A DNA stretch of 64,000 nt from positions 496,001 through 560,000 of the forward strand of contig NC_092654.1 in the NCBI RefSeq assembly GCF_032118995.1, written 5' to 3'. Every line of letters starts with the position of its first letter. Within the stretch, counting starts at the first letter, position 1. Below, piece after piece: positions 5,205 through 64,000 of the stretch. The stretch is from Asterias amurensis (Eukaryota; Echinodermata; Asteroidea; Forcipulatida; Asteriidae). A program made the position numbers and the translations under genes. The notes under the pieces were generated by a model. That model ran no database searches, was not told where the DNA came from, and worked only from the letters and a program-made list of their open reading frames with translations.

Positions 5205-5575
5205 TTTCGTCAGAACCAACACTACTCGTAAGAGACTTACACATGGTGCAACCGCAAACCTCACCTGATTATACTCCCACCATGCAATATATTATATAGA
5301 AAGGTTTGCGGTAACACCATGTAATGACTATCTCTAATGAGTTGGGGTGGTTCTGAAAAGAACCGTTAGTTTCAACACGACGCTTCGATCAGTATACTCT
5401 GATCATCGTCTTCTGCTCTCTCCAGAAGACGATCAGAGTATACTGATCGAAACGTTGAGTTGAAACCAATGGTTCTTTTCAGAACCACCCCAACTCATTA
5501 GAGATAGTCATTACATGGTGTTACCAGAAACTTTCTATATCGTATTTCCACCATGCAAAGTTTCAAATCCTACTT
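5205..5575. mobile_element. Hairpin MITE with about 118-bp inverted arms
   Basis: Arms at about 5294-5414 and 5425-5540 are near-perfect reverse complements around a 10-bp loop (GCTCTCTCCA region). Flanking parts (5205-5290) carry AACACTACTCG and ACCGCAAACCTCAC, shared with the element at 47736-48190. Too short to encode a transposase, so non-autonomous. Confidence 0.75.
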
Positions 5576-10300: not shown

Positions 10301-13300
10301 TTGTATAAAAAAGGGGGGAACTAGGTCACATTGAGCTGCCTTGTCCCAACCCCCTTCCACTGGTGTGTTCTCAATGCTCGTAACCTATGACCTTAGCATA
10401 GTACTCCGATGGGGAAGTGCAATACATGTGTTCGCACCTGCCACCATGTGCTGTTAGTCATGAGTGCATCAGCAGGCTCAAAGTTATTAATCCAGATGGT
10501 CTAGAATATAAAGGTTGTCAAATGGAAACTGACAGGTCTTACCTATACGTGTCATTTTAATACCCAACCAATCCCTGATGCTCTGTTCCATGGTGACACA
10601 GGTGGATTTCACAAAGAGTTAAGACTACTCTTATAGTTAGGACGAGTGTCCTAAGTTAGGATATCTTTGTGAAATTGACCCCAGCAGTTTAAGTTTTGAT
10701 GGATTCCTCACTGCTTGTCTTTGGATCTCTCTTTGCCAATATAAATACTATTTTCTTTTGTGTTGAAGTAAACACAGCCCATAGTTGGGAGTTAAATGAA
10801 AACACTCAGTACATTCATCATTCAAGACTGAGGAACTATCGAGTTCTCTCCTGTCTGATTATTCCTTTCCTTACCCTCTCATACGTCTGTTTTACAGGTT
10901 TAATAGTTCACAAAAATGATCACCAAAACAAAATTGTCTCTAGTGGAATACATGTACTACCACCTGCAATTTATCACGGTTTGAGCAAAAAACAAACAAT
11001 GGGTTTTACTTAGATTTGACAAAATGAAAGTGAAATGTATCTGTGTCCCGCTAACAACACATGACATTGATCAATCTTTTCCCCTCGCCTTCTTCACAGG
11101 TGTTCGAAACGATCGGAACAAGAAGAAGAAAGTCAAACCTGAAGTCAGCGAGAGTCAGACGATTCCACCGGAGATTGAAGACATTGTACAGAAAGTGTTA
11201 CAAGCTCATGTAGATACCTTCCCTGCAGACCCTATTGGGCCTGCCTTCAGTGTGGTACGTGTAGTCATGTTCATGTGAAAAGGGAGGAATGTGGGGTAAA
11301 GGTTTTGGGAACAGGGGAAAGGTTTGAGGAAAGGGGATAACGTTTGGGAAAGGGGGTAAAGGTTGGGGAAATAGAGGGTTAAGATTCCGAAATGAAGGGA
11401 ACATTTTGAAAATGGGGATAAAGGTTCAGAAAATAAACGGAGCAATTTGAGAAAAGGGGTTTAGGAAAACCACCCAAGTCGAAATCCAAGCTCTGGTGTT
11501 ATCAGCAGGAAGAGTGTGGGTTCGCATCCCAGTCGTGACACTAATGCCCTTCAGCAAGGCACTTAACCAATTGCTTCGTAAAAAGTTGGGACGGTAGTGC
11601 ATTCTGCTATTCAAGCCAGGCTCCTAGTGGAAGATACCCATGCCTACATCCTTACAGACTGTGTTTCAGCCCAAGGAGTAGGTGGCAATGTTTCCCTGGT
11701 GACATTTAGGCGTAGTCCTCATCTTGAAGTTGCCCTATCGACCTTATAATGTTAGGCGATCTCTCATAATTTCTTTTTTTTTAAATCAAGATAGAAGACC
11801 TTGACAGAAGTCATCATAGTAATAGTCGGCGAAAGTGGGGTTGGTGATGGTGGTGGGAGGGGGATGCCCAGTACAGTCTGTGAAGATGGCCCAGTCTCCT
11901 GTTATTTAGTATACGTGTTGTGTGTGTGTGTGTGTTTGCTTTGTCCTTCTATCCATTTATCACCCAGTCTGTCTATGTCTTTACATGTAGTCTGGTTCCT
12001 GCCTCATAGTATCGTCAGGATTCTGTGAATTCTTAACCTAGCTTTAAAGGAAGTGGTTGTCGGTTGTACATCTGTAAATGTAATACTACGCCGTCAAATA
12101 ACATACTGTAGTTTTCAACCTAGTTGACAAATGTTTCTCAAAGACCATTCTTTGAAAGATTAAAAAAAAAACTCTTAAAGGAACACGTTGCCTTGGATCG
12201 GACGAGTTGGTCAAAACAAAAGCGTTTTTAACCGTTTTTTATATAATGCATATGGTTGAAAAGATGTTTTAAAAGTAGCATACAATGATCCACACAAGTT
12301 TGCCTCGAAATTGCGTGGTTTTCCTTCTACTGTGCGAACTATCACCGTCGGCCATTTATGGGAGTCAAAATTTTGACCCCCATAAATGGCCGACGTGTTA
12401 GTCGACGAGGTAAAAGGAAAACCACGCAATTTCGAGGCATGTTTGTGTGGATCATTGTATTCTACTTTTACAACATCTTTCTACCCATATGCATTTTATA
12501 AAAAACGGTTACAAACGTTTTTCAAAGACCAACTCGACCGATCCAAGGCAACGTGTTCCTTTAAACTAGTTATTGTTGTTAGATATTAATACCATTTCAT
12601 TCAGCATTTTATATTCAGGTTGAATTTAGTCCTTACCCCAAATATATTAAACAATTTAAAGAAGTTGAAACTAAAGCTTCAATGAACATAGATCGTTGTT
12701 ATAAATTGTGAATCCATCCCTGACTTATAGAGTCTTTTAATTCAAAGACAATATACACCATAGAAGACATACAGAGTTTACTGTCTTTAAACCTCAAGAA
12801 GAATACACTATACCCCACCATATTCTGGTTTTCTCATGGAAGCCACCTTGAAGAGGAGATTCCTAAAATAGTCTGTAATGGTTTTTCCTTCCTTTTGAAT
12901 CTTATCTTAAACACACCCATGTAAGAAAATCATTTGAGTAATTGCCAGTATTGAACTCATCCTTTAACCACTTGGTCTTGTCAAGATAATGTATCCGAAC
13001 TAGACTCCCTCTATATGACATAACCTCATCACTCAATGAACTACCCTCTGACGCAAATATTTACCAGTATCAAGCTACCATTCAGTCAGAGGTACTGATA
13101 AGGTAATTGTAGGACATACAGCTCCCTATACCTTTCAACAGTGATGTAGGGATGCCTGCAGTTAACCAACCAACACCCACTAAAAAGAGCGAAGGGAGAG
13201 AGAGAAAGCATGTAACTGATAAGAGAGTTGGCGTAATGTATGACAGACTTGTGTATTTGTGTAACACCAGGACCAATGTTGGGGTCTGTCTGCGGCTAGC

Positions 13301-16300
13301 ATGTGAGTTATTGCAAGCTGAGGAGTAAAACAAATTAAGGCCATACTGATGATCAAAGATTCTTTCACTACAGATGCTTCTCATTCTGAACTCAATACAC
13401 CCTCTAAAATGCCCCCATTCCCTTTAAAAAAATGTCTGTTTGAAAAACTACTGATCGCTCCGTACTTGGGAGCATTTCAAAGATGGCCGACACATGGTTA
13501 CAAATTTATCGATTCAAAACATTTAAATACAAAACAATTTTAAGGAAATGAGTGTTTAGTTCAATAATGTCCGACACAACAAGGTTACAAATTGATCGAT
13601 TCAAAACATTTAAATACAAAATAATTTTCAGGAAATGAGTGTTATGTTTCTTTTGCAAACACTAAAGTTCACTGTCTGGAATAGACATTTTGGTGCGATC
13701 AATTTAATATTGACGACAAAAGACCTTCTATAAATCCTTGTTTGTTTAACGAGATATTTTTATGTTCACATTGATATATGGACCAATGGGCAACTCTACA
13801 GTGACCTATTCTGAACTTTGTTCCCTTTTCATCTCCTCAGTATTTGCCTTTGTTAATATTTGACCAATTTAGTTTGATATTAAATTTTATTGTGCACGTG
13901 AGGCTAGTTTTATACATGTATGCTTCGGCTTACATTTCTATATCCTACACCCCCCCCCCCAAAAAAAAATTGTTTTTAAAAAAAAATCCTCGCCAGAAGT
14001 ATCTGCCAGAGATGTCTGCCAGTGCCCTTCAAGGAAACAAAAGGACTAAATTCATTACTCTGTTTACTCAAGGTGAAATAATTGACGCTTACTACAGAAG
14101 TATACAATTCGTTTCAAAATTTAAGCGTATTTCACAAGTTAGCAAGGAATCGTTGTTTGTGTCATTAGCACGTTACTGAGCATTATTGGCTTACCCAGCT
14201 AGCGCATTATTTCAGCACTAGTGCTGTAAGCAGAGAATGGTGACCATAAGCATAGACTTCTGCAGTAAGCAGAACCATGAAATTGGCAAGGAATCGTTGT
14301 TTGTGTCATTAGCACGTTACTGAGCATTATTGGCTTACCCAGCTAGCGCATTATTTCAGCACTAGTGCTGTAAGCAGAGAATGGTGACCATAAGCATAGA
14401 CTTCTGCAGTAAGCAGAACCATGAAATTGGCAAGGAATCGTTGTTTGTGTCATTAGCACGTTACTGAGCATTATTGGCTTACCCAGCTAGCGCATTATTT
14501 CAGCACTAGTGCTGTAAGCAGAGAATGGTGACCATAAGCATAGACTTCTGCAGTAAGCAGAACCATGCTTCAATAGGGATGTTCCCATGTTGGGTTTTTG
14601 GTTCAACTTTTGCGTGATGTTTGAAGATAAGCAGTGAAAGACATTTTTTGTAATCATCCCCATTACCCAGTCAGGAAGGAATCACTTTGAGCAGGAAATG
14701 GCTCTCATCTTAATTGATTTTGATTCAATTCTCACATTAAGAGAGGAGTTCCAGTCACTGTCAGTCATGCAGTTTGTTTTTGTATAATATTGACAACCTC
14801 TGAAGGAAAACGGAAGGTGATGGTGAGAACTGATTGAGTGCGGTTTTCACAGATATCTTATATGATGGTTATAGGGGTGTTGGCGTTGGTTCTTATTGTC
14901 ACTGGCCCCTGTTTTGAAGAACAACACTTTACAATCGTGTCCGCAAAGTTGTGGTACACTTAGGTAGGAATCTTAACACTCGACACAGTTACTTCATTTT
15001 GGTTGTTTGTTTGTTTGTTGGGATTTTTGTTTGTACGTTTGTTTTGCTTGTAAAATTGCATTGAAGGATTTCTGAAAAATATTGCGCTGTAATCAACTTC
15101 AGTTTTTTGAATCCTTTGATTTATATATAAATAAGTAATAGTTTTGTGAAATTTTCAAGCTAATGTTACTCTTTAAAGTAAATAAATGTGTACATGTATG
15201 TATTTTTTTAATTAGTCCGACATCAATATTAATTATGGGTTTAATGGAAAACTAATCCATTCTAATTATATTTATGATTAGCGTCACAGCTTGCCTGATA
15301 TGAGGCGGATTCATGTCCCATCAAGGGGGTTCCATTACAATCGACACCCCATCATTACTTTGATTTTTTCCAACAGTGTGAACTATTAACAGATCAACAC
15401 AACAACAACAACAACAACAACAACATAAAAATGCACAATTTTTAGTTCTTTTGTTTTTCTTCCCTCCGTTGTTTTCTCTCTTCTCTACTCTCTCTCTCTT
15501 ATTCTCTCTACATCTCCAGGCTGTTGAAGATGATCGCGATAAGCTACGCATTTCCAAGGATAGTAACAAGGGTGACGCAGCAGATGGCACTAATAACAGT
15601 GATAGCACCAGCCTACTCAAGCTAACAGTGGTGGGGAAAAACAAACAATCCAAACAATTCATTCTAATTGCAAACCAAAATTCTTCAAAACCCTCCGTAA
15701 AAAAAGTCATTCCTTGTAGCTTTGTTGTTGTTTTTTCTTCTTTTCCACAAAGAAGAAATCATTCATGTTGTTCAAGAAATAATTTTTGTCAAGAAATCAT
15801 TCATGTTGTTTATTTATTGATGCATTTATTTATTTTCTGCTATTGCATATGTTTCATTCAGAAATGCCCAAATGGATTATCTGGATTAAGCTGATCAAGA
15901 AACCTGCTTCTATCAGGAATCCCTTTTCCCCTGATCATATCAAACTGATTTATTCCATTCTTTATTTATTGTTTGTTCGCACTATTTATTTTATTGCTTA
16001 TTTTATTCGATGCACAGGTTTTACTGAAACTTTCTAAACCATCCAACACTTCATCTAGCTTATCTCAGTTACAACATCAGTTCTTCTTTAAGAAGCCCTG
16101 AATAGAACAATCAGTCTGGTCCCGCTTCTGCTTTACAATCTTTGAATATACATACACTATAAGACCATGATTACCACCTTGTAGTCTGGGTATCAGACCT
16201 CAACATCATCCCTACGTCTTCATGATTATGGTATCTATGATATGCTGTCATTATCTCATCATCTTAAAAAACTAAGACAGTTCACATTCACTCCAAATGA

Positions 16301-44300: not shown

Positions 44301-47300
44301 AGGTGTGCTGGTTGTATTTGGAGCTGAATATTTCATGACCAAAATGGCTGAATATTTCAAATCGTTGTCTTCCTGTTCTTCCAGTACTTTCACATAATCA
44401 TGCCTGTTATTTGCCAGAACTTTTTCCTGATTCTTCTGAGGATCTTTTAGGAAATGTGTCAGAGTGTCAGAGAGGGTTTTGTAAACAGGTCAGTTGGGTG
44501 ATGATTTTGTAGAGGAAATCAATCGCAGAATTAAGGGAACACTACAGATTGGTGGCAGCAGACTATACCAATTAATTCCACAAATACATTGTTCTCAGAA
44601 ATTCACTAGGAAAGCCACCAACTGTTTCAAAGTCTCCCATTGTGCATGCATTATATCATTTTATATTATATTTTCCTTTTGTCTGAGAGAGAGAGAGAGA
44701 GAGAAAGAGAAGAAAAGGGGAATATCCTGTTGATATCTAGGATTGAACTTTGTACATTAATCCAAGTACGTACTTATCAGAGCCATGCAGCTTAAGCTCA
44801 TATCCTCTGGAGAGACAAGAAAAACAGGGTCAAGATCTCCCTCTCTCCAGAAAAAAACAAGGTCAAAGGTCACACGTCATTCACAACTACTTTGTTATTG
44901 TTCTTGGAGTACAGTAATCATGTATTGTATTACCTTTAAAAGATTTCCAATCCTATAATTGATTTTTAAGATGTATTTTTGAACTGCCATTTGAACAACT
45001 TGCACTTGTGATGAGTCACTGGATAAGGATAATGATATGGATTTACAGTTTATGCTTTTTTTAAAGTGGATCAAAGTTGATAAGTCTGGGTCAGTAATTA
45101 AATGGGTCACTGCTGGTGGTGGTCAGAAGCTAGGCATGGAGGCCGGATGTACTTGCACAATAGAACAATGGTTTTTTGGTAATATCGGTCAAGGATTGGG
45201 GGAATGGTGTAAGGCGGTCACTTGTTCGTAGTGTGGGGAAATAGAAAAGGGGCAGTGATCATTTTGCTAATGGTCAAAAACACAATTTGTTTTGGCCTGG
45301 AAGATTAAGCTTTTCCATCTGACACAGTGTTAGCTTTTCGAAAACTGACCCTCAGATCTCAAATCTTAATAAAAACATCAACGATGTATCAAACATCGAA
45401 GACTCCCAACAAACAAAATAATTGTAACAACCTTTTGGACGAGTTTTAATTGACATCGGTACATAATTAAAGGAAAGAAATATAGTTTTAATTTTTAAGA
45501 TTTCCACACACCTTTATTTTTTCAAAGGGATTTCTTTATGTCACTTTTAATGACTTTGTTTTTATATTTCAGATTTTGATATCGACATGAACATTTTGTG
45601 TCAGATTTGCTGTGATAGGGCTTCAGGGTTCCACTATGGGGTACATTCCTGTGAAGGCTGCAAGGTATGACTGGTAGACAAACAAACAGATAAACACCCA
45701 CATGTTTAGTAGAGCAACATTTTGGGCTTTCTCCAAGGTGCAGTTCCTATGAGGAAAAAAAAACCCAACAATGTCTATCCTTGAATTTTGGCACAGCAAT
45801 TTTCAGAAGCCATTCAACTTGTAACTGCCGTAAAGCCAGGGATCACACCGAAGTGTACATAATGTAACTTAATTTTGTTGCAATAAAACATAAATTCATC
45901 CTAGTAGTAGTTCAGGGTTATTATTAAAAACCAAAATATCAAGTTTATCATTATTTTCAAGCTAAGACTCGTTCTTAATGTTTATTTCTTTGTTGTTTGT
46001 TTATTGTAGGGTTTCTTCCGAAGGACTGTGCAGCAGAATTTGACATACCGACCCTGTCTCAACAATGAACAATGTGAAATCAAACGCAGCAGTCGGAACC
46101 AGTGTCAATCCTGCCGCCTGAAAAAGTGCAATGACATCGGAATGTCTAGAAACGGTAAATCAGGCAACCTCTGACCCCTGTCATGGCTACAAAGTTTAAG
46201 TGTGTCCCTTTCATAAGCATTAATTTCTACTGCGCAAATAAATGAGGCACATGCTAGTGTTGATAATGACAGGTTTTTGTTATTGAGACCAGCATGCACC
46301 TCATTTCACATCAAATCTGACGTAGAAATTGTATTTGTGAAAATACAGCCCAGTTTCATCTAGCTGTTATAAGCAGAAAAGTAGCTAAGCACAACATATG
46401 TTTTCTTACAAGATTAAGGTAACTAGAGCAAATACTATATTGAATTTGACTTGGTTACTACTGGATTTTGCCTATCAAAAGAACATTATGCACAATTCTG
46501 CTGAAGCAGCTGATAGACCACTAGGGTAAACAGTTAATTCAAAAACATTTATATATCAATTATCCTGCGCTTACACTCTAAAGAATCACTTGGTGGTTGT
46601 CAGGATTGTGATCAAAAGTGACTTTAATTTACCATTGACCTTTATTCTTACAGCTGTTCGCTTTGGTAGAATGTCCAAGAAAGAGAAAGACAAGCTCTTA
46701 GCCGCTAAGCAGCAGGTTGTGAGACGGACGGACCTTGTTACTCTGGAACCACTGGACCTTAGACAATCAACCAGTCAAGAGACAACGGACAAATCAACTT
46801 CCAAGACAGACACCCTCTCGCACAAACTGAAAACACCAAATGGGAAACTGGCAAACTCAAGTGCAATAAGGGGCTCGTCACGAGGTGGAAAGAAACAGAA
46901 GAATCTAACTCCAGAGGGCGCTATTGATATCACTCGACAAAAGGGTTCTGAGACCAAAGCAGTGCTTGGTCTTACTGCATCGGCCACAGCGCACAGGAAC
47001 CATCCTTATATAATGACCAATCCACAGTATTTATCTGCAGCCAACCGCCTTCGATATCTTGCTTCTATACCACGCTGTGAAACATCTGAAATTCCATCAG
47101 GTGTTCTCTTGATCGGCAATCCTGCTCAAAGTCAATCGAGAGAATGTGAACCTACTCCAACGCAGACTGCAGTTGATCAGAGAACAGAATCTGAATACAG
47201 ACAGAACAAATCGTCTCTTTCCGCAAGTGAAAAGAGAAAACTTTCTGAAATGCAAATCACTCCTGTCAAAGCGCAGGGGAAAATATCTCAGGGTTCCTGC

Positions 47301-49888
47301 GGGAAAACCGGCCATAATGCCGTCTTGCAGTATGAAAACGGAACCAAAGTCTTACTGAGTGTCTCTCAGAGAACTCCAAGAGACGGACCTCACCAGCGCC
47401 AAGTTCTTTCACCCGTCCAACATGAAATTCAAAGCCCGAAGACCAAACACAAGTGCAATTACCCAGTGCCAACCAATGCAAATCCCCACCTTGGGAACAA
47501 TGATCGGAAAGGAAGCAATGTTACTAGAGAGACAGGACGCCATTTTAGAGTAGGGTCTAATGGCATAGATACAGTAGACACCATATGTGAGGCTTATGCT
47601 GAAGTCATGGAGGATCAATGGAACAATCTAGAACATATTCTACTCATTGCAATCAGGAAACATCTTCCAGACGAGAATTCCAAATCATCAACTCTTCCCC
47701 AGGTTTGTGTTTTTGTAGATCTTAAGCAATTAGTCGAGGTTTGCGGTAGAACCATTTGTATTAGTCTCTTTTGAGTAGTGTTGGTTCTGGAGACGATCAG
47801 AGCATACTGCTTCCAACCATCGCTTCTTTAGTGTTGGTTCTGGAGACGATCAGAGCATACTGCTTCCAACCATCGCTTCTTTAGTGTTGGTTCTGGAGAC
47901 GATCAGAGCATACTACTTCCAACCATCGCTTCTTTAGTGTTGGTTCTGGAGACAATCAGAGCATACTGCTTCCAACCATCGCTTCTTTAGTGTTGGTTCT
48001 GGAGACGATCAGAGCATACTGCTTCCAACCATCGCTTCTTTAGTGTTGGTTCTGGAGACGATCAGAGCATACTGCTTCCAACCATCGCTTCTTTAGTGTT
48101 GGTTCTGGAGACGATCAGAGCATACTGCTTCCAACCATCGCTTCTTTTCAGAAGCAACACTACTCGAAAGTGATTTGCACCGCAAACCTCACTTCATGTT
48201 ACTCCTGCCATGCAAAACTTCAAATCCTAGCGACCAGGATAAATTCCTCCAGAAATAGAGTTGTAAAACAAAAATAAAGAAAGCACGATCACACACTTTT
48301 AAGAATGGGAGAGAGGACTCTTGTGGGTGCTATTGTGACCTGTTTTTTTGTTTTTGTGTGGGGGGGGGGGTAAACGAGTAAACAATTGATGTGTTTAGTC
48401 ACATGTTCAAATTTTCACTCAAATGATAAACCATTTAACTTTCGTCTTGTCTCTGCAGAAGTCCAGCGCCAATACAGAGTCCATCTCGGAAGAACTGTTT
48501 TCTCATTTATTTTCTCCGGCCATCGGACGCATCGTTGCCTTCACTAAGTCCATCCCAGGATTTGATACAATTCTTCATTCTGATCAGGTAACAAGGACTT
48601 TGGACTTACGGTCTTCAAATTAATTTTTGTTGTCTGTGCTGGTGAATACTTAGTAGGATTTGATACTTCGCACGCTGAAATCTCCGGTGCTAAATTATAA
48701 ATCAATTGCCAATTGTTACAAAATGATTTGATAGGATGAAGCAACCATGTAACAATACCTTGAAAGGAATACTAGAATGGTTTTCATTTCTTAGACAAGT
48801 TTGTGAAGCGTTGATAGAATGACAACATGATGTTATTTTTCTCTTATAGGTTGTTCTCCTGAAGACAGGTTGTTTTGAGGTACTTCTTCTTCAGCTGTGT
48901 GAGATACTAGACGTAAGCCAAGACTCTGTTCTCTTGGTAGGAGAGAACTTCACCAGAGAGATGGTCAAACAGACAGGTGAGAAAAAACAATTCAGTCATT
49001 TCTTTGTTCTGCTCAATTTTTAATTTCTTCAACATTTATTCTTTATATTCATTTTGGTTTTTACCCATATACACTGATATGTGTTAGCACTGTATACTCT
49101 GTATTTACTCTGAGAGGCAGTTCTAGCAGCGGGTACTGCAAATTACATATGCAAAACAAACTATACAAGAGTTCATTTCCTTTCTTTATTAAGTAATTTG
49201 AAAAGGTTATTACTTTATATTTACTTTGTGAAGGTTACTAAATTGTACCTTGGTTTTTATGTTTGAGGCCTTGGTTGTAAGGGTGAATAATTTGTAGCAG
49301 GATCATTTTTGCTTAGCTTATGCCAGTGTTTTTGGTGTAACATATTTGTCTGTCTTTCTTTTTTTCTTGCTACAGAACTTGGAGAGTTAATGGAAGCAAT
49401 GTTCTCCGTTGCCAAGCAACTCCTTATTCTAAAACTGACTCGAGCAGAAACAGTTCTCTTACATGCTATTGTTTTAATAGCATCAGGTTAGTCAGTGTTT
49501 TTTATTATTAATTTTTTGTTTTTCAAACTAAGTGAAAATGGCAAGTTTTGTTTTTATGTATGTGCAAATTCAGGTCCCATTTTAATTGTGCTGCTTTCAA
49601 CCGATTACTATGCAGCATGCATTTACTATAAGCACAAACTTTTATCAACCTGGTCTCAGTTATAGGACTATTTGATGGAAATGTTTGATTTTCTCACTAG
49701 ATCGTAAAGGCCTCACTAACCCAGAAGCTACTCGTGGAGTTCAGACCCAACTCTCAGGATTGTTGGAGCAATACTTGTACCTCAGCCACGGTCCAGACAA
49801 CTCCATCTTCCATCGATGTCTTCAGATTGTCTTAGATCTTCGTATCTTAAACATCCAGCATGCTGAGAAACTTGCTTATCAATCCTAA
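38316..49888 (+). CDS. NR1D: NR1D/E75 (Rev-erb-like) nuclear receptor, about 627 aa, 8 coding exons
   Basis: Coding exons are 38316-38358, 45573-45664, 46010-46154, 46654-47702, 48459-48587, 48850-48976, 49376-49486 and 49701-49888, with consistent phases. The DNA-binding domain spans about 24-90: [40 protein letters not shown], then MSRNAVRFGRM, a Rev-erb/E75-type C-terminal extension. A long polar hinge (about 95-400) follows. The ligand-binding domain spans about 400-627, with [33 protein letters not shown] and [13 protein letters not shown]. The last matches the helix-11 heme-His region of Rev-erb and E75 (MHSEKL). The protein stops eight residues past that His, so helix 12 is missing, as in Rev-erb. 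A corepressor-recruiting role is inferred. The first finger has CC where most receptors have CG. No Cys resembling the second heme ligand is evident. Whether it is orthologous to Rev-erb, to E75, or to their common ancestor cannot be settled by eye. Confidence 0.88.
39622..39631 (-). promoter_or_regulatory. RORE/RevRE monomer in NR1D intron 1
   Basis: Minus strand AAATAGGTCA, inside a degenerate run of about 23-bp units (39583-39653) that repeats the (G/T)GACCT or GATCT motif about four times. Confidence 0.35.
42857..42867 (-). promoter_or_regulatory. RORE/RevRE monomer in NR1D intron 1
   Basis: Minus strand AAAGTAGGTCA, an 11/11 match to WAWNTRGGTCA. Confidence 0.4.
44860..44872 (+). promoter_or_regulatory. 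Perfect DR1 site in NR1D intron 1
   Basis: AGGTCAAAGGTCA, the textbook DR1 for RXR, HNF4 and COUP-TF, about 700 bp before the zinc-finger exon. Confidence 0.5.
45099..45109 (+). promoter_or_regulatory. RORE/RevRE monomer before the NR1D zinc-finger exon
   Basis: TAAATGGGTCA, an 11/11 match to WAWNTRGGTCA, about 460 bp upstream of exon 45573. Confidence 0.35.
45573..45664 (+). CDS. NR1D: NR1D exon: first zinc finger
   Basis: Acceptor TTATATTTCAG, donor GTATGA. Encodes [18 protein letters not shown] through CEGCK. The intron after CEGCK is the same as in RAR. Confidence 0.93.
46010..46154 (+). CDS. NR1D: NR1D exon: second zinc finger
   Basis: Acceptor TTATTGTAG, donor GTAAAT. Encodes [15 protein letters not shown], then C-x5-C-x9-C-x2-C with [11 protein letters not shown]. 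Ends in phase 1, as the matching RAR exon does. Confidence 0.94.
46654..47702 (+). CDS. NR1D: NR1D exon: C-terminal extension, long hinge, start of ligand-binding domain
   Basis: 1049 bp. Begins [19 protein letters not shown] after TTCTTACAG. About 300 polar residues rich in Lys, Ser, Thr and Gln follow without recognised domains, then a helix-1-like segment [19 protein letters not shown]. Ends in phase 0 at LPQ with a weak donor, GTTTGT. Reading continues open for a short way into the intron, up to a MITE. Confidence 0.92.
47736..48190. mobile_element. MITE with seven-fold internal 53-bp tandem repeat
   Basis: Terminal repeats GAGGTTTGCGGT and ACCGCAAACCTC. Inside, seven units of 53 bp start at 47779, 47832, 47885, 47938, 47991, 48044 and 48097 (each with TGTTGGTTCTGGAGAC). 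Related to the hairpin at 5205-5575. It begins 33 bp after an NR1D exon end. Confidence 0.8.
48459..48587 (+). CDS. NR1D: NR1D exon: helix 3 region
   Basis: Acceptor GTCTCTGCAG, donor GTAACA; 43 codons in phase 0. Encodes [18 protein letters not shown] and ends HSDQ, matching the E75/Rev-erb helix 3-4 signature. Confidence 0.92.
48850..48976 (+). CDS. NR1D: NR1D exon: helices 4-6
   Basis: Acceptor TCTTATAG, donor GTGAGA. Encodes [20 protein letters not shown] and a beta-turn region ending MVKQT plus one base. Confidence 0.9.
49376..49486 (+). CDS. NR1D: NR1D exon: helices 7-8
   Basis: Acceptor TTGCTACAG, donor GTTAGT. Encodes [16 protein letters not shown] and HAIVLIAS. The phase-1 intron after this segment is at the same place as the RAR intron after AICLISG. 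Confidence 0.9.
49701..49888 (+). CDS. NR1D: NR1D terminal exon: helices 9-11, stop
   Basis: Acceptor TCTCACTAG. Encodes DRKGLTNP, a diverged helix 9-10 region, then [19 protein letters not shown] and TAA at 49886-49888. No helix 12 follows. Confidence 0.92.
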
Positions 49889-52724: not shown

Positions 52725-53243
52725 AAGCCTAGTGTCCAGCAAACTCCGATTCTGCACTATTACACCTTGTTAATATGCAATTATGAAAAGGTAATTACAT
52801 ATTCACCCTAATTTATCTGCAATTTGGCATTTTGATCAAGCCATGTTTTCAATTGTTTGACCAAATAATGAACAATTATGATTTTTCTCTTGTTTATCTC
52901 ATTGCTTTTCTGCTTGTATTAAATAATTTCATTATGTGAATATTTTTGTTGTATATTAATAACACATGTTCTTCCCTTGTGTCTTGCTTATGTTTTTAAA
53001 TAATTTACTTTTATATTTTGTTGGAGAATAATAACAACCGTTTTTCCTCCTTTATTTGTTGCTAATCATGTATTTTTAAACTATTTAATGTTGTGAATAT
53101 TTTTACTGTATAATATTACCCCCCCCCCCCCCTTATTTCAACAATTTTCTGATTGTTATATTTTATAAATGCACTTGCATTTTTATGCCAGTCCCAAGAC
53201 ATTAAATAAATTCTCAATATTTTATTTTATTCAATTGTAACAG

Positions 53244-53342
53244 GAAGTTTCCAGATCTGACTGAGCCTCTTCAAGTTTTGTACATTGATACAAAAAGTTC
53301 CTTTTCTGAATTTGATTAATTTCTCAATGAATCTGTGCAAAG
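53244..53342 (+). pseudogene. FLAD1-like exon, copy 1
   Basis: 99 bp, acceptor AACAG, donor GTATGT. The frame has one in-frame TAA after SSFSEFD. Confidence 0.7.
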
Positions 53343-53963
53343 GTATGTATTATTAATATAAAGAAAAACAAAACATAACCAATCAAATTAATATTGTAGA
53401 ATTTAATGTTATCAAATATAATAAGGTTTTGTTTGTTCTTTTTTTTATCAACTGTTTTTCTCAAATTTGAAACGATTCTATCAAAAGTCTAAAAATAGAT
53501 TTGAATGTTTTTACCATTTTGTATGTTTCCACAATTCTGCTTTTTGGCCAAGCCATGCTTGTTATTTGAATACACAATAAATGATCAATGATAACCTTTT
53601 CTCTTTTTTATCTGCTTCTTATCTTGTATTTGTTGAATAATTTAATTCTGTGAATGATTTTGTTGTATAATAATAACAAACATTCTTCCCTTGTGTCTTG
53701 CTTATCGTGTGTTTTTAAATAATTTACTTTTGTGAACATTTTTGTTGTAGAATAATAACAACCGTTTTTCCTCCTTTATTTGTTGCTAATCATGTATTTT
53801 AAACTATTTAATGTTGTGAATATTTTTACTGTATAATATTACCCCCCCCCCCTTATTTCAACAATTTTCTGATTGTTATATTTTATAAATGCACTTGCAT
53901 TTTCATGCCAGTCCCAAGACATTAAATAAATTCTCAATATTTTATTTTATTCAACTGTTATAG

Positions 53964-54062
53964 GAAGTTTCCAGATCTGACTGAGCCTCTTCAAGTTTTG
54001 TACATTGATACAAAAAGCTCCTTTTCTGAATTTGATTAATTTCTCCATGAATCCGTGCAAAG
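53964..54062 (+). pseudogene. FLAD1-like exon, copy 2
   Basis: 99 bp, acceptor TATAG, donor GTATGT; same TAA as copy 1. Confidence 0.7.
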
Positions 54063-54661
54063 GTATGTAATATTAATAACAAAATGAAACGTAACCAATC
54101 GAATTTATATTGTAGATTTTAATGTAATCAAATATAATAAGGTTTTGTTTTTTCTATTATTTTTTTATCAACTGTTTCTCAAAGATTCTACCACAAGTCG
54201 ATTTGATTGTTTTTATCATTTGTATGTATACAAAATTCCGTTTTTGGCTAAGCCATGTTCGTTATTTGAACACACCTTTAATGAATAATGATAACTTTCT
54301 CTCGTTTAAATCTGTTTCATATATTGTACTTGTTGAATAATTTAATTTTGTGAATGATTTTGTTGTATAATAATAACAAACATTCTTCCCTTGTGTCTTG
54401 CTTATCGTGTGTTCTTAAATAATTTACTTTTGTGAATACTTTTGTTGTAGAATAATAAACGTTTTTCCTCTCTTATTTATTGCTAATCATGTATTTTTAA
54501 ACTATTTAATTTGTCGAATATTTTTATTGTATAATATAACCCCCCCCCCCCTCATTTCAACAATTTTCTGATTGTTATTTATACATGCACAATTTGCATT
54601 TTCCTGCCAGTCCCAATACATTAAATAACTTCTCAATATTTTATTTTATTCAATTTTACAG

Positions 54662-54769
54662 GAAGTTTCCAGATTTGACTGAGCCTCTTTAAGTTTTGTT
54701 TATTTTGTACATTGATACAAAATGAGCCTTTTCTGAACTTGATGAATTTCTCCATGAATCCGTGTAAAG
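54662..54769 (+). pseudogene. FLAD1-like exon, copy 3
   Basis: 108 bp: a 9-bp insertion (TTTATTTTG) before the GTACATTGATAC motif. The TAA at the SEFD position is absent (GAA there), but two other stops are present. Acceptor TTACAG, donor GTATGT. Confidence 0.7.
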
Positions 54770-55382
54770 GTATGTAATATTATTAACAAAAACCAAACAA
54801 AACCAATCAAATTTATATTCTAGAATTTAATGTAATCAAATATAATAAGGTTTTGTTTTTTTTCTATTATTTTTTTATCAACTGTTTCTCAACGATTCTA
54901 CCAAAAGTCTAAAAAGTAGATTTAAATACTTTTAGCATTTTTATGTTTACACAATTCTGCTTTTTGGCCAAGCCATGTTCGTTATTTGAACACACCTTTA
55001 ATGAATAATGATATTTTTCTCTCGTTTAAATCTGTTTCATATATTGTGTTTGTTGAATAATTTAATTTTGTGAATGATTTTGTTGTATAATAATAACAAA
55101 CATTCTTCCCTTGTGTCTTGCTTATCTTGTGTTTTTAAAGAAATTTACTTTTGCGAATATTTTTGTTGTAGAATAATAACAACCGTTTTTCCTCCTTTAA
55201 TTCTTGCTAATCATGTATTTTTAAACTATTCTATTTTGTGAATATTTGTATTGTATATTATCCCCCCCCTCTCATTTCAACAATTTTCTGATTGTTATAT
55301 TTTATAAATGTGCTTGCATTTTCATGCCAGTCCCAAGACATTAAATAACTTCTCAATGTTTTATTTTCTTCAATTATTATAG

Positions 55383-55481
55383 GAAGTTTCCAGATCTGAC
55401 TGAGCCTCTTCAAATTTTGTACATTGATACAAAAAGCTCATTTTCTGAACTTGATTAATTTCTCCATGAATCTGTGCAAAG
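55383..55481 (+). pseudogene. FLAD1-like exon, copy 4
   Basis: 99 bp, acceptor TTATAG, donor GTATGT; TAA at the same place as copies 1 and 2. Confidence 0.7.
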
Positions 55482-56079
55482 GTATGTAATATTAATAACA
55501 AAATGAATCATAACCAATCAAAGTTATATTGTAGAATTTAATGTAATCAAATATAATAAGGTCTTGTTTTTTCTATTATTTTTTTATCAACTGTTTCTCA
55601 ACGATTCTACCGAAAGTAGATTTGATTGTTTTTATCATTTGTATGTTTACACAATTTTGCTTTTTGGCCAAGCCATGTTCATTAATTGAACACACCTTTA
55701 ATGAATCATGATAACTTTCTCTCGTTTAAATCTGTTTCATATATTGTATTTGTTGAGTAATTTAATTTTGTGAATGATTTTGTTGTATAATAATAACAAA
55801 TTTTCTTATCATTTTCTTATCGTTTGTTCTTAAATAATTTACTTATGTGAATACTTTTGTTGTAGAATAATAACAAGTGTTTTTCCTCCCTTATTAATTG
55901 CTAATCATGTATTTTTAAACTATTTAATTTGTCGAATATTTTTATTGTATAATATTACCTCCCCCCCCCCCCCATTTCAACAATTTTCTGATTGTTATTT
56001 ATAAATGCACTTGCATTTTCCTGCCAGTCCAAATACATTAAATAACTTCTCAATATTTTATTTTCTTCAATTGTTAGAG

Positions 56080-56178
56080 GAAGTTTCCAGATCTGACTGA
56101 GCCTCTTCAAGTTTTGTACATTGATACAAAAAGCTCCTTTTTTGAACTTGATAAATTTCTCCTTGAATCTGTGCAAAG
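56080..56178 (+). pseudogene. FLAD1-like exon, copy 5 (open)
   Basis: 99 bp, fully open: AAA replaces the TAA of copies 1, 2 and 4, giving FFELDKFLLESVQR. Its donor GTATGT joins in frame to the exon at 56723 (R then YNLKLL). It is the best-preserved copy and lies nearest the remaining downstream exon. Confidence 0.75.
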
Positions 56179-56722
56179 GTATGTAACATTAATAACATAA
56201 CCAAACAATAAGCAATAGAATTTAATGTAATAAAACAAATAAGGTTGCGTTTTTTTTACTATTTTTGTATCAACTCTTTCTCTCAAATTTGAAACGATTC
56301 TATCAAAAGTTTAAAAGTAGATTTGAATGTTTTTACCATTTTGTATGTTTCCACAATTCTGCATTTTGGCCAAGCCATGTTGTTCTTTGAATACACCATC
56401 AATGAATAATGATAACTTTTCTCTCGTTTATCTTGTATTTTGTATCTTGTATTTGTTAAATAATTAGTATTTTTGAATATTTTTGTGTATAATAACAAAC
56501 TTTTCTTCCCTTGCTTCGTGATTATCTTGTGTTGTTAAATAATTTACCTTTGTGAATATTTTTTGTTGATAATATTAACAACCGTTTTATTCCCTTATTT
56601 CTTGCTTGCTATGTTTTTTTATTTTTTTACATTTAATTTTGTGAATGCTTTTATTGTGTAATATTAATTTCCCCCCCTTTATAAATATTGTAACTATTAT
56701 TATTTATTTTATTATTTTCCAG

Positions 56723-56850
56723 GTACAACTTGAAGCTACTGAGGGTCACAGGTCGTATTAAAGCGCCTTGGTAATCTTGCAAGAGCAGCATCCAGAGAAT
56801 AAAGCTGTCTCGATGGGGACCAGGAAGTCTGACCCTTATACCAGTCAAAT
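56723..56850 (+). pseudogene. FLAD1-like downstream exon, one frameshift
   Basis: Acceptor TTTTCCAG. YNLKLLRVTGRIKA is followed by a one-base deletion relative to the family; the next frame then reads LVILQEQHPENKAVSMGTRK and SDPYTSQ. No donor or later exon (WPAFMRINPLLDW in FLAD1) was found. Confidence 0.7.
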
Positions 56851-57139
56851 TAATTTAATAACACTAGAAAAATTAATAATAATAGTGTCTTCTTATAAAG
56901 CACATATCTGTCACTAAGTGTAGCTCAAGGGTACTTCAATTTGTCAGTATTTTCCAGTTAGGTATATGGGACCTACTGCTTTTAAATTATGGGACCTACT
57001 GTTCTCACAAAGCACCATGTAATGGTCTACAAGATGCCATTTGGTAAAGGGCATCCTATGAGGAAATTTTCATTTTTGGGGGAGTAGTTCAACAGCGCCA
57101 AGACAATGACCAGGGACTGAAATTTGCAAAGCACTATTT

Positions 57140-57660
57140 TCTGCTGACAGCTTTATGCAATTGGGCCCATGTACAAGTTTAAACAAGTACTGAGTTTTAA
57201 CTTTCTGCATTGCACAAATGGTACACGGCTAAAATGTAGGGAAAACCCAAATATTACAGAGTAGAGACCATGTGACTGATAATATAAACTTACAATGACA
57301 AAAAAGCTCAAACTTCCTGCAGGCACAAATTGTACACAACTCAAATTTAGGGGGGAACCCAATAAGACAGCATAGCTTGTAGCTCAAAATATGTTCTGGC
57401 CCAGTGTTTAAAAGATCAGACTTAACATGAGAAGAGCAAAATGCCTACAAAGCTCAATATTTTCTTTATCAAAAAAATTAAATTAGTTAGAGACCATGTG
57501 ACTGCTGATATCTTAGGTTTACAAGTATTGAGTTTAAACTTTCTGCAGTCACAAATTGTACACAGCTCAAGTTTTTTGGGGAAACCCCACATAGTAAGCA
57601 CCTTAGAGACTACATGACTTATGACATAAGGTTACAATTACAGAGTTAAAACTTCCTTGG
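57140..57660 (+). repeat. Four diverged tandem units of about 120-130 bp
   Basis: Units share AAACTTTCTGCA-type and CACAAATTGTACACA motifs and an AGAGACCATGTGACT motif. Sequence between 56851 and 58860 otherwise shows no gene. Confidence 0.6.
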
Positions 57661-59479
57661 GTCATCAAGATAGATCTTACTAATTAGGACTAGTCCTAGG
57701 AATATTTAAAACTAGGAACTTTTTAGATATCACCGAACATTCAAAACGGTTTTGTCCAGGCAGAAAGAATAATCCCCAAAAGGAAAACAATCTGAAATGC
57801 CTTACTGCATAACGCTTCTCAGATTAAAGTTTTCATTTGTGGATGTTTTAGTTTTGTGTTGTATAAAAAGTACCTATCCCCTTTAATGCCTGTGACAAGC
57901 CAAAAGATAGTTTCATCTATGTTATAATATTTGAAATTAATAAAGATGTATTATACTTAAATTTATTTTCCTATAAGTGGTGTTTTAATGCAGAAGATAT
58001 AACTTTTTTATGTATAATGAAGGTTGTCATTGAAATTTGTAATAAATTATTCATGAAATTTGCCACTTTGTCTTTGAAGATTTGTCTGTTTGTGTTCCTA
58101 TTTATCTTTAAAAGTAACAATTAATTTATTTTCCCACACATATATTTTCATAAGAGAATTACTACTTTTCTCTATATCTGGTATACCCAAACATTTATTC
58201 ATTAGTACCTTGATGTAGTTGGTGTGGGTTCAAAAGTTAAAAGGCAGTCAATTGGCACCAAAATGGGTTATTTTCGCTGAAGAAGATGAAATTTAACACA
58301 AAACTAAAATACAAAATTCCTGAACTATGCTAACTTCACTTTAGTTAGAATTAGTTTTTTACCCGCACCACTGCCTTTTAAGACTGAGTACTTCCCTACG
58401 TTCTGTGAAGACAAAATCCAGACTCGGGAGGGATTGGAACCCATTACATTGGTGAAAAGAAAAAAAATATGTCTTTATTCCAGATGCAAAAATATAAACA
58501 TCTATTAAATTGTTGGTGCAAATGCAATAGGTTCTTTTTAAATGTTCCATTCAACATCCATATGATGCAAATATAGGAATGGTTGCAGAAACTATAGCTG
58601 TGACAGTTAACTGAACATTAAAGACAATAAGCAAAGTGAATTGGTCACCCCCACCCTTCCCTGGCCCCGCCCCCACGGCAACCTCCCCGCCCAGTTTAAT
58701 GCCCTTTTCGAAACCACTGCATTTATGCTCCGGCTCAGTCACTTACGAAGCTTTAACCATTAAAATAGAGGTCAAAGCCTGATAGTCCAAGGCGTACTAC
58801 CGTGGTTTCGAAAAGGGCATAGTATCATTGTGCGCTCATCTCAAGAGGGCGCTTTGGTCCTGCGCATGTGCATTCAGTACCAAACTCCCTAGCCTGCACA
58901 ATTTACGTAAACATGTCGTCTGCTCACACGAAGACTTCAAATCAAAATGTTTTCAAACCAAAACATCGGTAAGTAATGATTTGTTTGTTTAGTTTATTGT
59001 TTAAATCGTCTGGAAATAGCTTGTAGATTCTTGGTGTGTATCTATACGCCGTTGTGCACAGTTTTATCACCCTTTTGTAAAGTGAGGTTAAATTTTATGA
59101 AACTAAAACTTGTTTGTCGATGTCGTAGTGTTGGCAATGGTTGGCGTTAACGTTAGTCACTTAGTGGACTAGTGTTGTTGAATGTCATTGATGATTTGGG
59201 GTTACTTTAGCTTTCGTATTCCTAACTATGTTGTTAGTATGTTACCGTTCCTTCAAGCAATGAGTACGGACTGGCTAAAGTGATAGAAAGAAGTCATTTA
59301 ACAATAACATAGGACGATACTCTCATCATCCATAGGACATAGAGCCCCATGCCCTGGTTGTAGGACGTCAGTCAGTGCCTCTGCATGCAACGGAGGAGTC
59401 CAACCTGGCTAGGGTCAGTCGGTGATTTCTTTCTGTCCCTGCCTTTACCCTCTAGCTCTAGCTCAGGCAGGGGCAGGTT

Positions 59480-59620
59480 CCTCTGAGGCTCTGTGAACCC
59501 GATTCAATTCCCCGACCGGAGCCTAGCCCTGCATGTGGACTGTGTTTTTTAGTCCTAGCATGACTGTAGGTTTTTTTCCTTAATAAGGGGTTTTCCCTCC
59601 CACGTCTAAAACTGAAATTT
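59480..59620 (+). mobile_element. Possible SINE fragment
   Basis: GATTCAATTCCCCGACCGG resembles a decayed B box; CATGTGGACTGTGTTTTTTA and TAGCATGACTG follow. Assignment is from general resemblance only. Confidence 0.3.
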
Positions 59621-59755
59621 GTCCACTTGACTGTCTTCTTTGAAAAGAAAGTTGGTGTGATGTTTCCGTTAGGATGCTTTGTCGACTACCGATCGACATA
59701 TATATCGATTTGTAGTACGGCATATATTCAAGCTTGTTACAGAGAGTCACGTTAA

Positions 59756-59945
59756 AGGAACACGTTGCCTTGGATCGGTCGAGTTGGTCTTTGAAAGGCA
59801 TTTGTAACTGTTTATTATAAAATGCATATGATTAAAAAGATATTTTAAAAGTAGAATATAATGATCCACTCAAGTATCACTCGAAATTGCATGGTTTTCA
59901 TTTTACTTTGCGAACTAACACGGTCGGCCATTTATGTTCACAAAT
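59756..59945 (+). mobile_element. Half MITE, AGGAACACGTTGCC family
   Basis: One arm only, from TTAA (59752-59755) to the GGCCATTTATG centre. The second arm is missing. Confidence 0.75.
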
Positions 59946-60509
59946 GGCTCCAAAGATTATGATTGACTCACATTGAGCCAAGACTGGTTCAGTCAAAGTT
60001 GAGCCACTGGCTCAAGTGTTTATATTATGAGGACTATTATAATATGGGCTAATAGTTTTTATCAGTCCCTACTCCAAAAACTGAGGTTCGTTCCGTGGCA
60101 CAAACCTCATACTTCTAGGAGTAAGCAGCACATACCTTTAACATGTGTTTCATTTCAATCACGGAGGAAGGAAAAGTTGTAAAGACTTAGTTTTTAAAAT
60201 GCATGAAAGTTAACACCCCATAAAAGAACCAATTTTTTACTCAAATTTTTGCTGTTTACCCTTTTTTAGGAATCCTTGAAGTAACTTTGGTTTGTGTTCA
60301 TCGTTATTGGTTACGGATGCAACAGACAGGATTGTACCCATCACCAAACATAACCACGTGAGAAGTCCTTGTCAGATGACAGAACTGTTCCATCTTGAAG
60401 TTACTGCAAATACTGGTGAGTTATGCCTTACTTTGTTTATTTTTCTTGCGATTTAGTTTTGTTATCAGTACTGCATAATGCTGAAATTGCTCAATGCACA
60501 CCACCATTC

Positions 60510-61590
60510 TGTCAATCTGGAACCGCCCCAAAAATATAACCCTTTTTACAACCAGCCTTGTACATCAATCCCAAACTCCCCCTAATATTGAACTGCCCCC
60601 AAGATTTAACCCCTTGTTCTACCCGACCTCCCCTTTCCTTCAATCTTGAACTGCCCCCAAGATTTAACCCTTTCTACTACCAGCCTGTACTTCAATCCCC
60701 CTCCCCCACTTTCTTTCAATTTTGAACCACCCCAAGATTTAAACCTTTTTCCTACCAGCCTGTACTTCAGTCCCCCTATTCTTTCAATCTTGAACTGCCC
60801 CCAAGATGTAACCCCTGTACTACCAGCCTGTACTTCAATTCCCCCACTTTCTTTCAATCTTGAACCGCCCCCAAGATGTAACCCTTTCTACTGTCAGCCT
60901 GTACTACAATCCTCCCACTTTCTTTCAATCTTGAACCACCCCCAAGATTTAATCCTTTCTTCACCAGACTGTACTTCAATTCCCTAACCCCACTTTCTTT
61001 CAATCTTGAACCCCCCCCCCAAGATGTTCTACTACCAGCCTGTAATTCAAACCCCCCACACTTTCTTTCATTCTTGAACCACCCCCAAGATTTTCTACTA
61101 CCAGCTTGTACTTCAATACCCCCACTTTCTTTCAATCTTGAACCGCCCCCAAGATGTAACCCTTTCTACTGTCAGCCTGTACTACAATCCTCCCACTTTC
61201 TTTCAATCTTGAACCGCCCCCAAGATGTAACCCTTTCTACTGTCAGCCTGTACTACAATCCTCCCACTTTCTTTCAATCTTGAACCGCCCCCAAGATGTA
61301 ACCCTTTCTACTACCAGCCTGTACTTCAATTCCCTCACCCCACTTTCTGTCAATCTTGAACCGCCCCCAAGATGTAACCCTTTCTACTGTCAGCTTGTAC
61401 TACAATCCTCCCACTTTCTTTCAATCTTGAACCACCCCCAAGATGCAACCCATTCTTCTACCAGCCTGTACTTCAATCCCCTACTTTCTTTCAATCTTGA
61501 ACCGCCCCCAAGATGTAACCCTTTCTACTACCAGCCTGTACTTCAATTCCCTCACCCCACTTTCTTTCAATCTTGAACCAGCCCTAGTGC
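60510..61590 (+). repeat. Minisatellite, about 15 units of about 71 bp
   Basis: Units read CTTTCAATCTTGAACC, GCCCCCAAGATGTAACCC and CCAGCCTGTACTTCAATCCC with small changes. A stray unit lies at about 61800-61870. ORFs on both strands here come only from the repeat. Confidence 0.9.
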
Positions 61591-62269
61591 AACCCCTTAA
61601 ATTAATACCAGCCTTGGTCCCATTTCATAAAGCTATCAAGCACAAAATGCTGCTTAGCAAGTTTCTAGGCTAAGCAATACATGAGTGGAGGTTACTAGTT
61701 TGAATTTTGACTCTGCAACTAGTTTCTGTTTAGCTAGCAAGATTTGTTGGTGCTTTATGCTATCGTGGCTTTATGAAATTAGGGCCCCTTTCCCAAATGT
61801 GCACCCCACTTTTCTGTCAATCTGGAATTGCCCCCCAAGATGCTACCCTTTTCTGACAGCAGCCCCCCCCCCCCCCCGCCCCAACAAAAAAATGCATGAT
61901 TCCACTTGCTTATGTATGCAATACCACCACCAGTATGCATTCATACATCTTCCGACTACATGCTAAGCCTAAGCTATTCTGTCTCAACTATGTATCTCAC
62001 ATTTTAAAAATAAAAAAAGTCAACAACTGAAATAATTTTATTCCATCATGGATTTTTTAATTGCATTTCTTTACCGTACAAAAAAACTCAATTACAATAG
62101 TTGAACAAATACGGGTTGATACGTGCGCATTACAAGTCATATTATTATACTATTATTATTAAATAGATTTCTGCTAAAATTACTTCTCAATTTCATTTGA
62201 TTAAGACAGATGTTTGTTAAAAATGCAAGCCTGAAATTTCATAACCAGTGGCCAGTTTCAATGAGCAGT

Positions 62270-62400
62270 TTATTTGCCTCAAAAGTAGCTTAGCACAAAG
62301 CAATTTTCCTTTGAATACCAGAGTAAGGTTGCCAGCCAAACTGCCTTGTCACATGTACTATTTGTAACTCATAGCCTGCTTCCTTTTGCTTAACAGAAAA
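62270..62400. repeat. Dispersed AAGCACAA-type repeat (one of several)
   Basis: Segments with TTAGCACAAAGCAA, GGTTGCCAGCCAAA and TCCTTTTGCTTA recur in variant form at about 4560-4700, 17440-17580, 32010-32130, 46350-46430 and 61630-61760. Probably one old dispersed family; boundaries are unclear. Confidence 0.4.
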
Positions 62401-63504
62401 ATATTAACAATAGTTCAGAAGAAGTTGACAGTCCACAAGAGGTGCCCTTTTAAAAATAACAAAAATACATAAAATCTGTTGTGGCCTAAATCTGCCATGT
62501 ACAAACATGTGACATGTCATTTTGCTTAGGCCTATATAGTTCAATAAATATAACCTAAAGATGTATCTTTTTTCCAGGCACTTTTACACCAAAGGCCCTA
62601 TGCTATTTTTAACTTATACTGTGATATGTCCAGACTGTTAAGTTGGATCAGTGGCTCTTATAATTGTGTACTAATTATTCTTTTTTCTTGTATTTCTGTT
62701 TATAGGTTCATTAAGATGATGAGGAGGAGCAGTTTCCACACAAGAGATGCACCAGGGCTTTGATAGGAACACGTAAATTGCAGCGTCATCATGAATTCAA
62801 ACACTTCATCATCTCTTTACTACAAGCTTCTTGTACTTCAACTCTGTAAACTACTCAATACTGGGATAAGGTAGGCTTTTTTGTTTTATTTATGAATTGT
62901 AAAAAGGTCTGTTTACAAATATACACTTTGACGGGGCTGCACTTTGACAGCATCATCAATATACTTAAATTGCCTCGCAGTCCAGGCCCCGGGGGAAAGC
63001 CAGGGTTGTACAAAAACAAGTCCCCACTCGATTAGGCAGTAGCAGGAAGGCTTGGACTATCACCCAAGGCCAATTTTACTTCCCTGATCCATCCCGACCA
63101 TGTTCCCCCCTAGTCCTGGTCCCCCTACAATATTAAAATTGTGCAAAAAAGCAATGAGGTAAATTTGTTGAAGTCTTAACATTTTGTAAACAGACCTTTA
63201 CTAATAACCAGTCCATTTATTGCGACTGTTGATGTAAGGTAAATCATTGATTGGTGCTGGCAGAAGAATATTTAAAGTTACATACTTATGCCATTTTGCT
63301 GGCAAAACTAAGTACAACAATCAACTCATAAGCAGAAAGCACACTATAATTTGCAGTGGCCACATTTCTGCTAAAGCTGAAAAATAAACATGTGTTGCTA
63401 CCATGTAGAATTGCTCTTATCCAGTTATTCCTAATTCACTCTCTTGGAGAGTGTAACTGTCCTACAAAGACCAATAAATGTTTGGGTTTATCGAACTCTC
63501 CAGC

Positions 63505-63580
63505 TCAGCTCATAGCGTTGCCAATTCTGAGGAGTTTATGCCGGGCGTACTTCTCCTGAAGTCCTTCTGCCAGCACACAT
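63505..63580 (-). CDS. C-terminal exon of an unrecognised minus-strand gene
   Basis: After a good acceptor (TTTTACAG on the minus strand) the frame reads CVLAEGLQEKYARHKLLRIG, then NAMS and TGA at 63505-63507. The peptide looks like a helical protein end, rich in Leu, Lys and Arg. A minus-strand AATAAA at 63216-63221 could be its poly-A signal. Earlier exons would lie beyond 64000. The family is unknown to me. Confidence 0.35.
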
Positions 63581-64000
63581 CTGTAAAATGATTGAAAGAC
63601 AATTAATTAGTATGTGTAGTATACAATCATAAATCTATGTGACGGTTAAGTGGCGGTTAAGGTATGGGTGTACGTATGACGTAGTTTTGTCGAAGATCAG
63701 TTTGTAGTAGTTTCAAGTTATGATTTTAGATTCTATCAAGAAGTAAACCACAAGGGAAACTGGTAGTGTAAACTGTAGATAATTTAGTGTTGAAAAAAAA
63801 GAAAAAAAAACTGACTAGAGCACTGGGTGTGAACCAATTACGTATTTAATTATGCCAGCGCACAACTTAGTGAGCCAGCCCTATGTAGGTGGTCTCCCTA
63901 TTATGTCAATGTTTGCTTCGGATACCATTTCTTGTATCAAGCCAAATTCATTTTAAGTTATAAGACGATCACTCTTTTTGATCCCAGTAAGCATGTATCC

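Follow-up and report, generated by a model that had tools for sequence, protein, structure and literature searches.

The window, that is, the whole stretch of 64,000 nucleotides analysed here (C7:496001-560000), contained between positions 53244 and 56178 five tandem copies of an exon of FLAD1, the FAD synthase gene, arranged in exon-intron units of 0.7 kb (array A; Table 1). The distances from one exon start to the next were 720, 698, 721 and 697 bp, and all five copies had AG upstream and GTATGT downstream, in agreement with the original prediction of a FLAD1 exon recurring in units of 697-721 bp with sound splice sites. Of the length of 99 bp and the matching phases that had also been predicted, the phases, read from the sequence as 2 at either end, were right for all copies, and the length was right for four of the five but not for A3 with its 108 bp. 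One stop had been expected in three copies and an open reading frame in the last, and exactly this was found (the stop in A1, A2 and A4; A5 open). The first stop of A3, a change from CAA to TAA, also occurred in copies B4 and B7 of array B. The assignment to FLAD1, for which a protein search had been proposed, was borne out by the translation of A5, all 33 residues of which aligned with human FAD synthase (8rom, E 0.0007; 8ron, E 0.0019). Chance is excluded as an explanation of array A.

The FLAD1-derived segment started at about position 52752, inside the 3' terminal stretch of the FLAD1 exon that comes before the repeated one, and extended beyond the right edge of the window. The next FLAD1 exon, YNLK, had been described as frameshifted; relative to the parental exon on C22 it had indeed lost one base and then ran into a stop, and the parental donor GTAAGAG was missing. 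Similarity between the window and the C22 locus was determined with blastn, and the blocks among the matches listed were 67-90% alike. A tandem repeat of 71 bp with 13.4 copies (window 60627-61584) was located inside a block common to the C22, B and C loci.

Table 1. FLAD1-derived features of the window (window positions) and arrays of exon copies on C7
Feature	Position	Strand	Remarks
Remnant, 3' end of preceding FLAD1 exon (with NGGKDC)	52752..52791	+	85% over 40 bp
Intron sequence with 82-bp minisatellite	52811..53243	+	blastn similarity to parental intron, C22 locus 10812-11684
Exon copy A1	53244..53342	+	99 bp, stop GAT-TAA, AG/GT intact
82-bp minisatellite, in the unit's intron	53618..53838	+	2.6 copies
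Exon copy A2	53964..54062	+	99 bp, GAT-TAA stop as in A1, AG/GT intact
82-bp minisatellite, following unit	54336..54540	+	
Exon copy A3	54662..54769	+	108 bp (9-bp insertion), three stops unlike A1/A2/A4, AG/GT intact
83-bp minisatellite, unit after that	55040..55257	+	
Exon copy A4	55383..55481	+	99 bp, stop GAT-TAA, AG/GT intact
Exon copy A5	56080..56178	+	99 bp, open, AG/GT intact
79-bp minisatellite, 3' of last exon copy A5	56443..56596	+	
Next FLAD1 exon (YNLK)	56723..56841	+	roughly 90% identity with the parent, a single-base loss and a stop close behind
Junction of founding fragment	56842..57317	+	unmatched in parent; partly common to A, B, CL and CR loci
FLAD1 3' flank	57318..64000	+	67-79% blocks vs C22 locus 15875 onward, also B and C loci; extends past window
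Array A	window, C7	+	5 copies
Array B	C7:1192130-1198009	-	9 copies
Array CL	C7:1837411-1841607	-	7 copies
Array CR	C7:1852222-1856977	+	8 copies
Array D	C7:2407303-2408147	+	3 copies, one (D1) a 5'-truncated fragment without AG

When the genome (491,506,623 bases in 23 contigs) was searched with the exon, at least 31 places were found, one of them on C22 (13,426,355 bases) and at least 30 on C7. When the fetched loci were scanned with a profile from five seed sequences, one of them shifted in register by 1 base and another by 3, the result was 33 rows, made up of 32 copies on C7 and the parent on C22. The KFPD exon, which is the exon multiplied in the arrays, was found on C22 at a single place and was open there, as were the FAD-synthase-domain exons read at this locus. 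A protein of 240 amino acids joined from the C22 exons gave a colinear match to human FAD synthase (E 6e-72). Nine parental coding stretches followed each other in order between positions 6735 and 14746 of the C22 locus, and a MoCF_biosynth match was present at C22:11396669. An intact FLAD1 gene elsewhere in the genome had been named as something to look for, and the C22 gene, with its exons read as open, is apparently this gene and the parent of the C7 copies.

C22 ended in TTAGGG repeats, which places FLAD1 about 2.0 Mb from the telomere. The C7 arrays were located between 0.55 and 2.41 Mb into the scaffold, in the first 2 kb of which no telomere array was seen. At the C22 locus the parental exon lay between the two copies of a direct repeat (10747-10957 and 11853-12063, 74.5% alike), and the intron upstream of it contained a minisatellite with 6.7 copies of 80 bp. 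The parental donor was GTATTT, that of the copies GTATGT. The 82-bp minisatellite was also clustered elsewhere on distal C22. A block of 1.6-1.9 kb from the FLAD1 3' flank (L024:2102-4011) had eleven further copies on C22 (C22:10766511-13095416, 90-92%), five on C7 (83-85%) and three on C8 (80%). The 3' flanking DNA of the gene has itself a tendency to be duplicated, and the FLAD1 exons may have travelled together with this block. An inverted cluster of the 82-bp minisatellite was observed about 5-9 kb from eight of the eleven C22 copies of the block.

The 32 exon copies found on C7 formed five arrays (5+9+7+8+3) within 1.9 Mb. The five-fold amplification claimed in the original prediction was thus correct for the window and an understatement for the chromosome. 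Nine parental coding stretches were tested, and only KFPD, present at every C7 locus, and YNLK, present at A, B and both C arms, occurred at more than one of these loci. Besides these, A had a 40-bp trace of the NGGKDC exon and D a 165-bp trace, 73% alike, of the last coding exon; five other stretches gave no match at the C7 loci at E 1e-4. The YNLK exon was not found at D, and it was disrupted in A, CL and CR, that is, in three of its four copies. At B it was open and in frame behind the open copy B9, and the donor was lost there too; the B locus therefore retains two intact-looking exons in series. The trace of the last coding exon was located beside array D at L031:8949-9100, and none of the remaining C7 loci matched it at E 1e-4.

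Blocks of the A and B loci were 70-93% alike, and the two C arms were 76-92% alike, with the best match over 4.4 kb. The region C7:1829001-1865445 is a large imperfect inverted repeat, the arms of which bear CL and CR with the arrays facing outward. The two arrays diverge in orientation and are about 10.6 kb apart. As repeats are the places where assemblers fail, a misassembly could in theory have multiplied one exon copy. This is very improbable, as the exons of array A differed by 6.7% on average and had private changes, A and B partly shared the order of their arrays, and the published PacBio HiFi assembly of A. amurensis was made from reads with a mean length of 12.5 kb at 22.7x, against an array of 3.6 kb. 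If the genome used here is this published assembly, a collapse of the array in long reads is unlikely.

Only eight of the 32 copies were in frame and open, while 11 were in frame with stops and 13 were frameshifted, so that 24 contained stops or frameshifts. Copy B5 had a deletion of 8 nt with GTATGT intact. Among the 31 copies other than D1, the changed states were distributed over codon positions 1, 2 and 3 as 32, 25 and 28, and synonymous, nonsynonymous and stop changes occurred in the ratio 24:56:4 (0.29/0.67/0.05, random expectation 0.25/0.71/0.03). As the latter ratio is close to random and the three codon positions changed to the extent given, protein constraint is not apparent. A gene with a tandemly repeated coding exon that is read in series, comparable to LPA KIV-2, is extremely unlikely and was rejected because of the stops, which occurred in four of the five window copies and left no array wholly open, and because of the near-random substitution ratio. 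Matching phases, the eight open copies and the open pair of last copy and next exon at B are what such a gene would have; on the other hand, the next exon was disrupted in three of four copies, and seven other parental coding stretches were missing from the C7 loci except for the single traces at A and D.

A retrocopy was rejected as well, because the introns were kept; intron and 3'-flank sequence was common to the copies and the parent. In comparison with the parent (D1 left out), the exon copies were 10-22% different and the near upstream intron mostly 13-27%, with outliers of 40% and 49%. These divergences fit a parent under constraint and copies free of it. In the 120 columns 3' of the exon the difference was 42-59%, and the sequences were scarcely alignable. 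Since the copies possess a stretch after GTAT that is missing in the parent, either the parent or the copies may have changed there. The original description of the locus as a decaying segmental copy agrees with the parent on C22, the lack of amino-acid constraint, the disruption of 24 of 32 copies and the repetition of the locus on C7.

The AG and GT at the exon ends were invariant in all 31 complete copies. In comparison with random columns, exon and intron pooled, this gave a P of 0.0018 for the four bases and of 0.00055 for the donor hexamer, which had changed once across the whole tree; in comparison with exon columns only, the value for the same four bases was about 0.02 (0.38 to the fourth power). 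Rates were compared in 22 of the 32 copies (A1-A5, B4-B9, CL2-CL6 and CR2-CR7), and the more diverged B1-B3, CL1, CL7, CR1, CR8 and D1-D3 were left out. In A and B together, 0.32 changes per column were counted in the exon and 0.46 in the near intron (base-stratified permutation, P 0.03). The corresponding values in C were 0.26 and 0.51, a difference reached in none of 5000 permutations. The exon columns changed 0.5 to 0.7 times as often as those of the near intron; against a wider intron stretch the ratios were 0.48 and 0.59, with P values of 0.0003 and 0.01. A sliding-block control of the same size was equally low in 25% (A and B) and 10% (C) of places, so that the exon was not significantly slow by this measure. 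In nearest-copy pairs, from which D2-D3 was excluded because of overlapping stretches, the exon differed by 5.8% (69/1186) and the intron by 8.0% (430/5407; Fisher P 0.011). The introns are AT-rich and consist in part of minisatellites, which may raise their apparent rate. The conservation of splice ends and exon is a weak hint at splice signals that have been kept.

The invariant splice ends would allow spliced non-coding transcripts, and are at most an indirect argument for the transcribed non-coding locus that the original description named as its second possibility. Arrays that are transcribed and spliced into useful multi-exon non-coding RNAs, which might for example regulate FLAD1 by sequence similarity, are nevertheless unlikely. 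The invariance of AG and GT, the single change of the donor hexamer and the mildly slow exon would fit such transcripts, as would the divergent orientation of CL and CR, because a read-through transcript over the 10.6 kb between them would carry inverted copies. Against this stand the sliding-block control and the shortness of the exact matches to the parent, the longest of which were 19, 19, 18 and 21 nt for the KFPD exon (A, B, C and D) and 32, 29 and 28 nt for the next exon (A, B and C). Moreover, no Rfam family was present in or near the window array or in the searched parts of the C22 and B loci. The inverted C arrays may have a role as small RNAs or hairpins, although their exact matches to the parent are short. 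That all five arrays yield spliced multi-exon RNAs maintained because of how they are spliced or of what the exon sequence is, and not for a protein, with a metabolic-gene exon as the repeat unit of a novel type of starfish RNA locus, appears quite doubtful on these data.

Much more probable is a pseudogenic origin, for which the order of events can be outlined. To the right of YNLK the loci of A, B, CL and CR had sequence in common that was missing from the parent. Beyond this junction, similarity to the parental 3' flank resumed at about 15.9-16.7 kb of the C22 locus coordinates among the matches listed. As the junction is shared by these four and lacking in the parent, a single piece of FLAD1 seems to have founded four of the five arrays. 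The array unit contained the parent's pieces in identical order with fewer minisatellite copies. In a tree of 31 copies and the parent (the fragment D1 left out), D was placed next to the parent, A was intermixed with B, and CL with CR. Copy A5 paired with B9, A3 with B4 and B7, B5 with B8, and B4 with B7. The pairings of A5 and A3 with B copies mean that at least part of the array is older than the duplication that separated A and B, and the pairings within B point to enlargement by a multi-unit step. Well-supported inner branches numbered 11 of 29, eight inner branches were left open, and CL1, CR1, D3 and the parent formed long branches; because of the few supported branches and the long ones, the branching order is tentative.

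In the history that we propose, a piece of FLAD1 would have been copied from distal C22 to C7, presumably in this direction. It would have begun in the end of one exon and run through its intron, KFPD and the exon after that to the 3' flank, with a gap before the flank by which the last coding exons were removed. On C7 the exon and its introns were probably multiplied in tandem by unequal exchange, a mechanism suggested by the structure of the locus, with the 82-bp minisatellite and the direct repeat flanking the parental exon as likely substrates. The array-bearing locus would then itself have been duplicated, giving A and B at a distance of about 0.64 Mb and C with its outward-facing arms. 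Array D, which kept a trace of the last coding exon, would be a separate or early branch, and the copies would now be drifting without protein constraint. Alternatively, the array may have existed in the parent and may later have been reduced there to one copy. The C7 arrays are in all probability a non-coding pseudogenic relic of a FLAD1 duplication with secondary amplification of an exon, presumably without function. This is an ordinary, neat decaying duplication, a new instance of a kind that is already known.

Other features of the window were also noted. A search with Rfam of the window and five fetched loci (L022, L023, L024, L037 and L038) gave one match, a histone 3' UTR stem-loop far from the array (window 5324-5369, minus strand, 34.3 bits at a gathering score of 34), which suggests a replication-dependent histone gene nearby. 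An open frame of 414 amino acids (46530-47774) had no Pfam match and was directly followed by a 53-bp tandem repeat with 7 copies and 98% matches (to 48147). A perfect 144-bp tandem repeat with 3 copies was present at 14142-14567. The stretch 12174-12565 (about 390 bp) matched the spacer of the C arrays, 98% in one orientation and 87% in the other, and is perhaps a mobile element.

The locus is a clean example of a single exon that left its gene with a duplicated flank and was then multiplied into arrays. The parent still displays the flanking repeats and the minisatellite that were the probable seed of the multiplication. At the C7 arrays, gene prediction programs may wrongly report multi-exon genes that resemble FLAD1. 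If spliced RNAs were nevertheless made from the arrays, the locus would offer a tractable example of a coding exon turned into non-coding RNA.

A literature search for such exon arrays gave no description in the listed titles and openings of abstracts, and FLAD1 was absent from one set of the papers listed. In the main text of two A. amurensis papers, one of them PMC10625585, neither FLAD1 nor segmental duplication is mentioned. The C7 loci resemble duplicated non-processed pseudogenes in segmental duplications in their introns, disabled exons, copied flank and parent elsewhere, and differ from them in the further amplification of a single 99-bp exon, together with its introns, to 3-9 copies in each array. 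A recent segmental duplication is defined by a length of 1 kb or more and 90% or more similarity; the C7 loci are long enough, but mostly too diverged (C7-C22 blocks mostly 67-90% among the matches listed). LPA KIV-2 consists of exon-plus-intron units in tandem that are in frame. The FLAD1 arrays are built in the same way and are in principle in frame as well. KIV-2 is reported to be a protein-coding VNTR with 5.6 kb per unit and 1-40 units (PMC11462820). The window array does not belong to the coding-exon VNTRs, with stops in four of its five copies and a frameshifted next exon; unlike KIV-2, the units here measure 0.7 kb, lie apart from the gene and are for the most part disrupted. Pseudogenic 'decaying exons' of mammals are reported to be single exons that were duplicated, were disabled by frameshifts or stops and show decay-type substitutions (PMC2718932). 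According to the abstract, these are considered in the surroundings of annotated genes, whereas the FLAD1 copies are located on another chromosome and in arrays.
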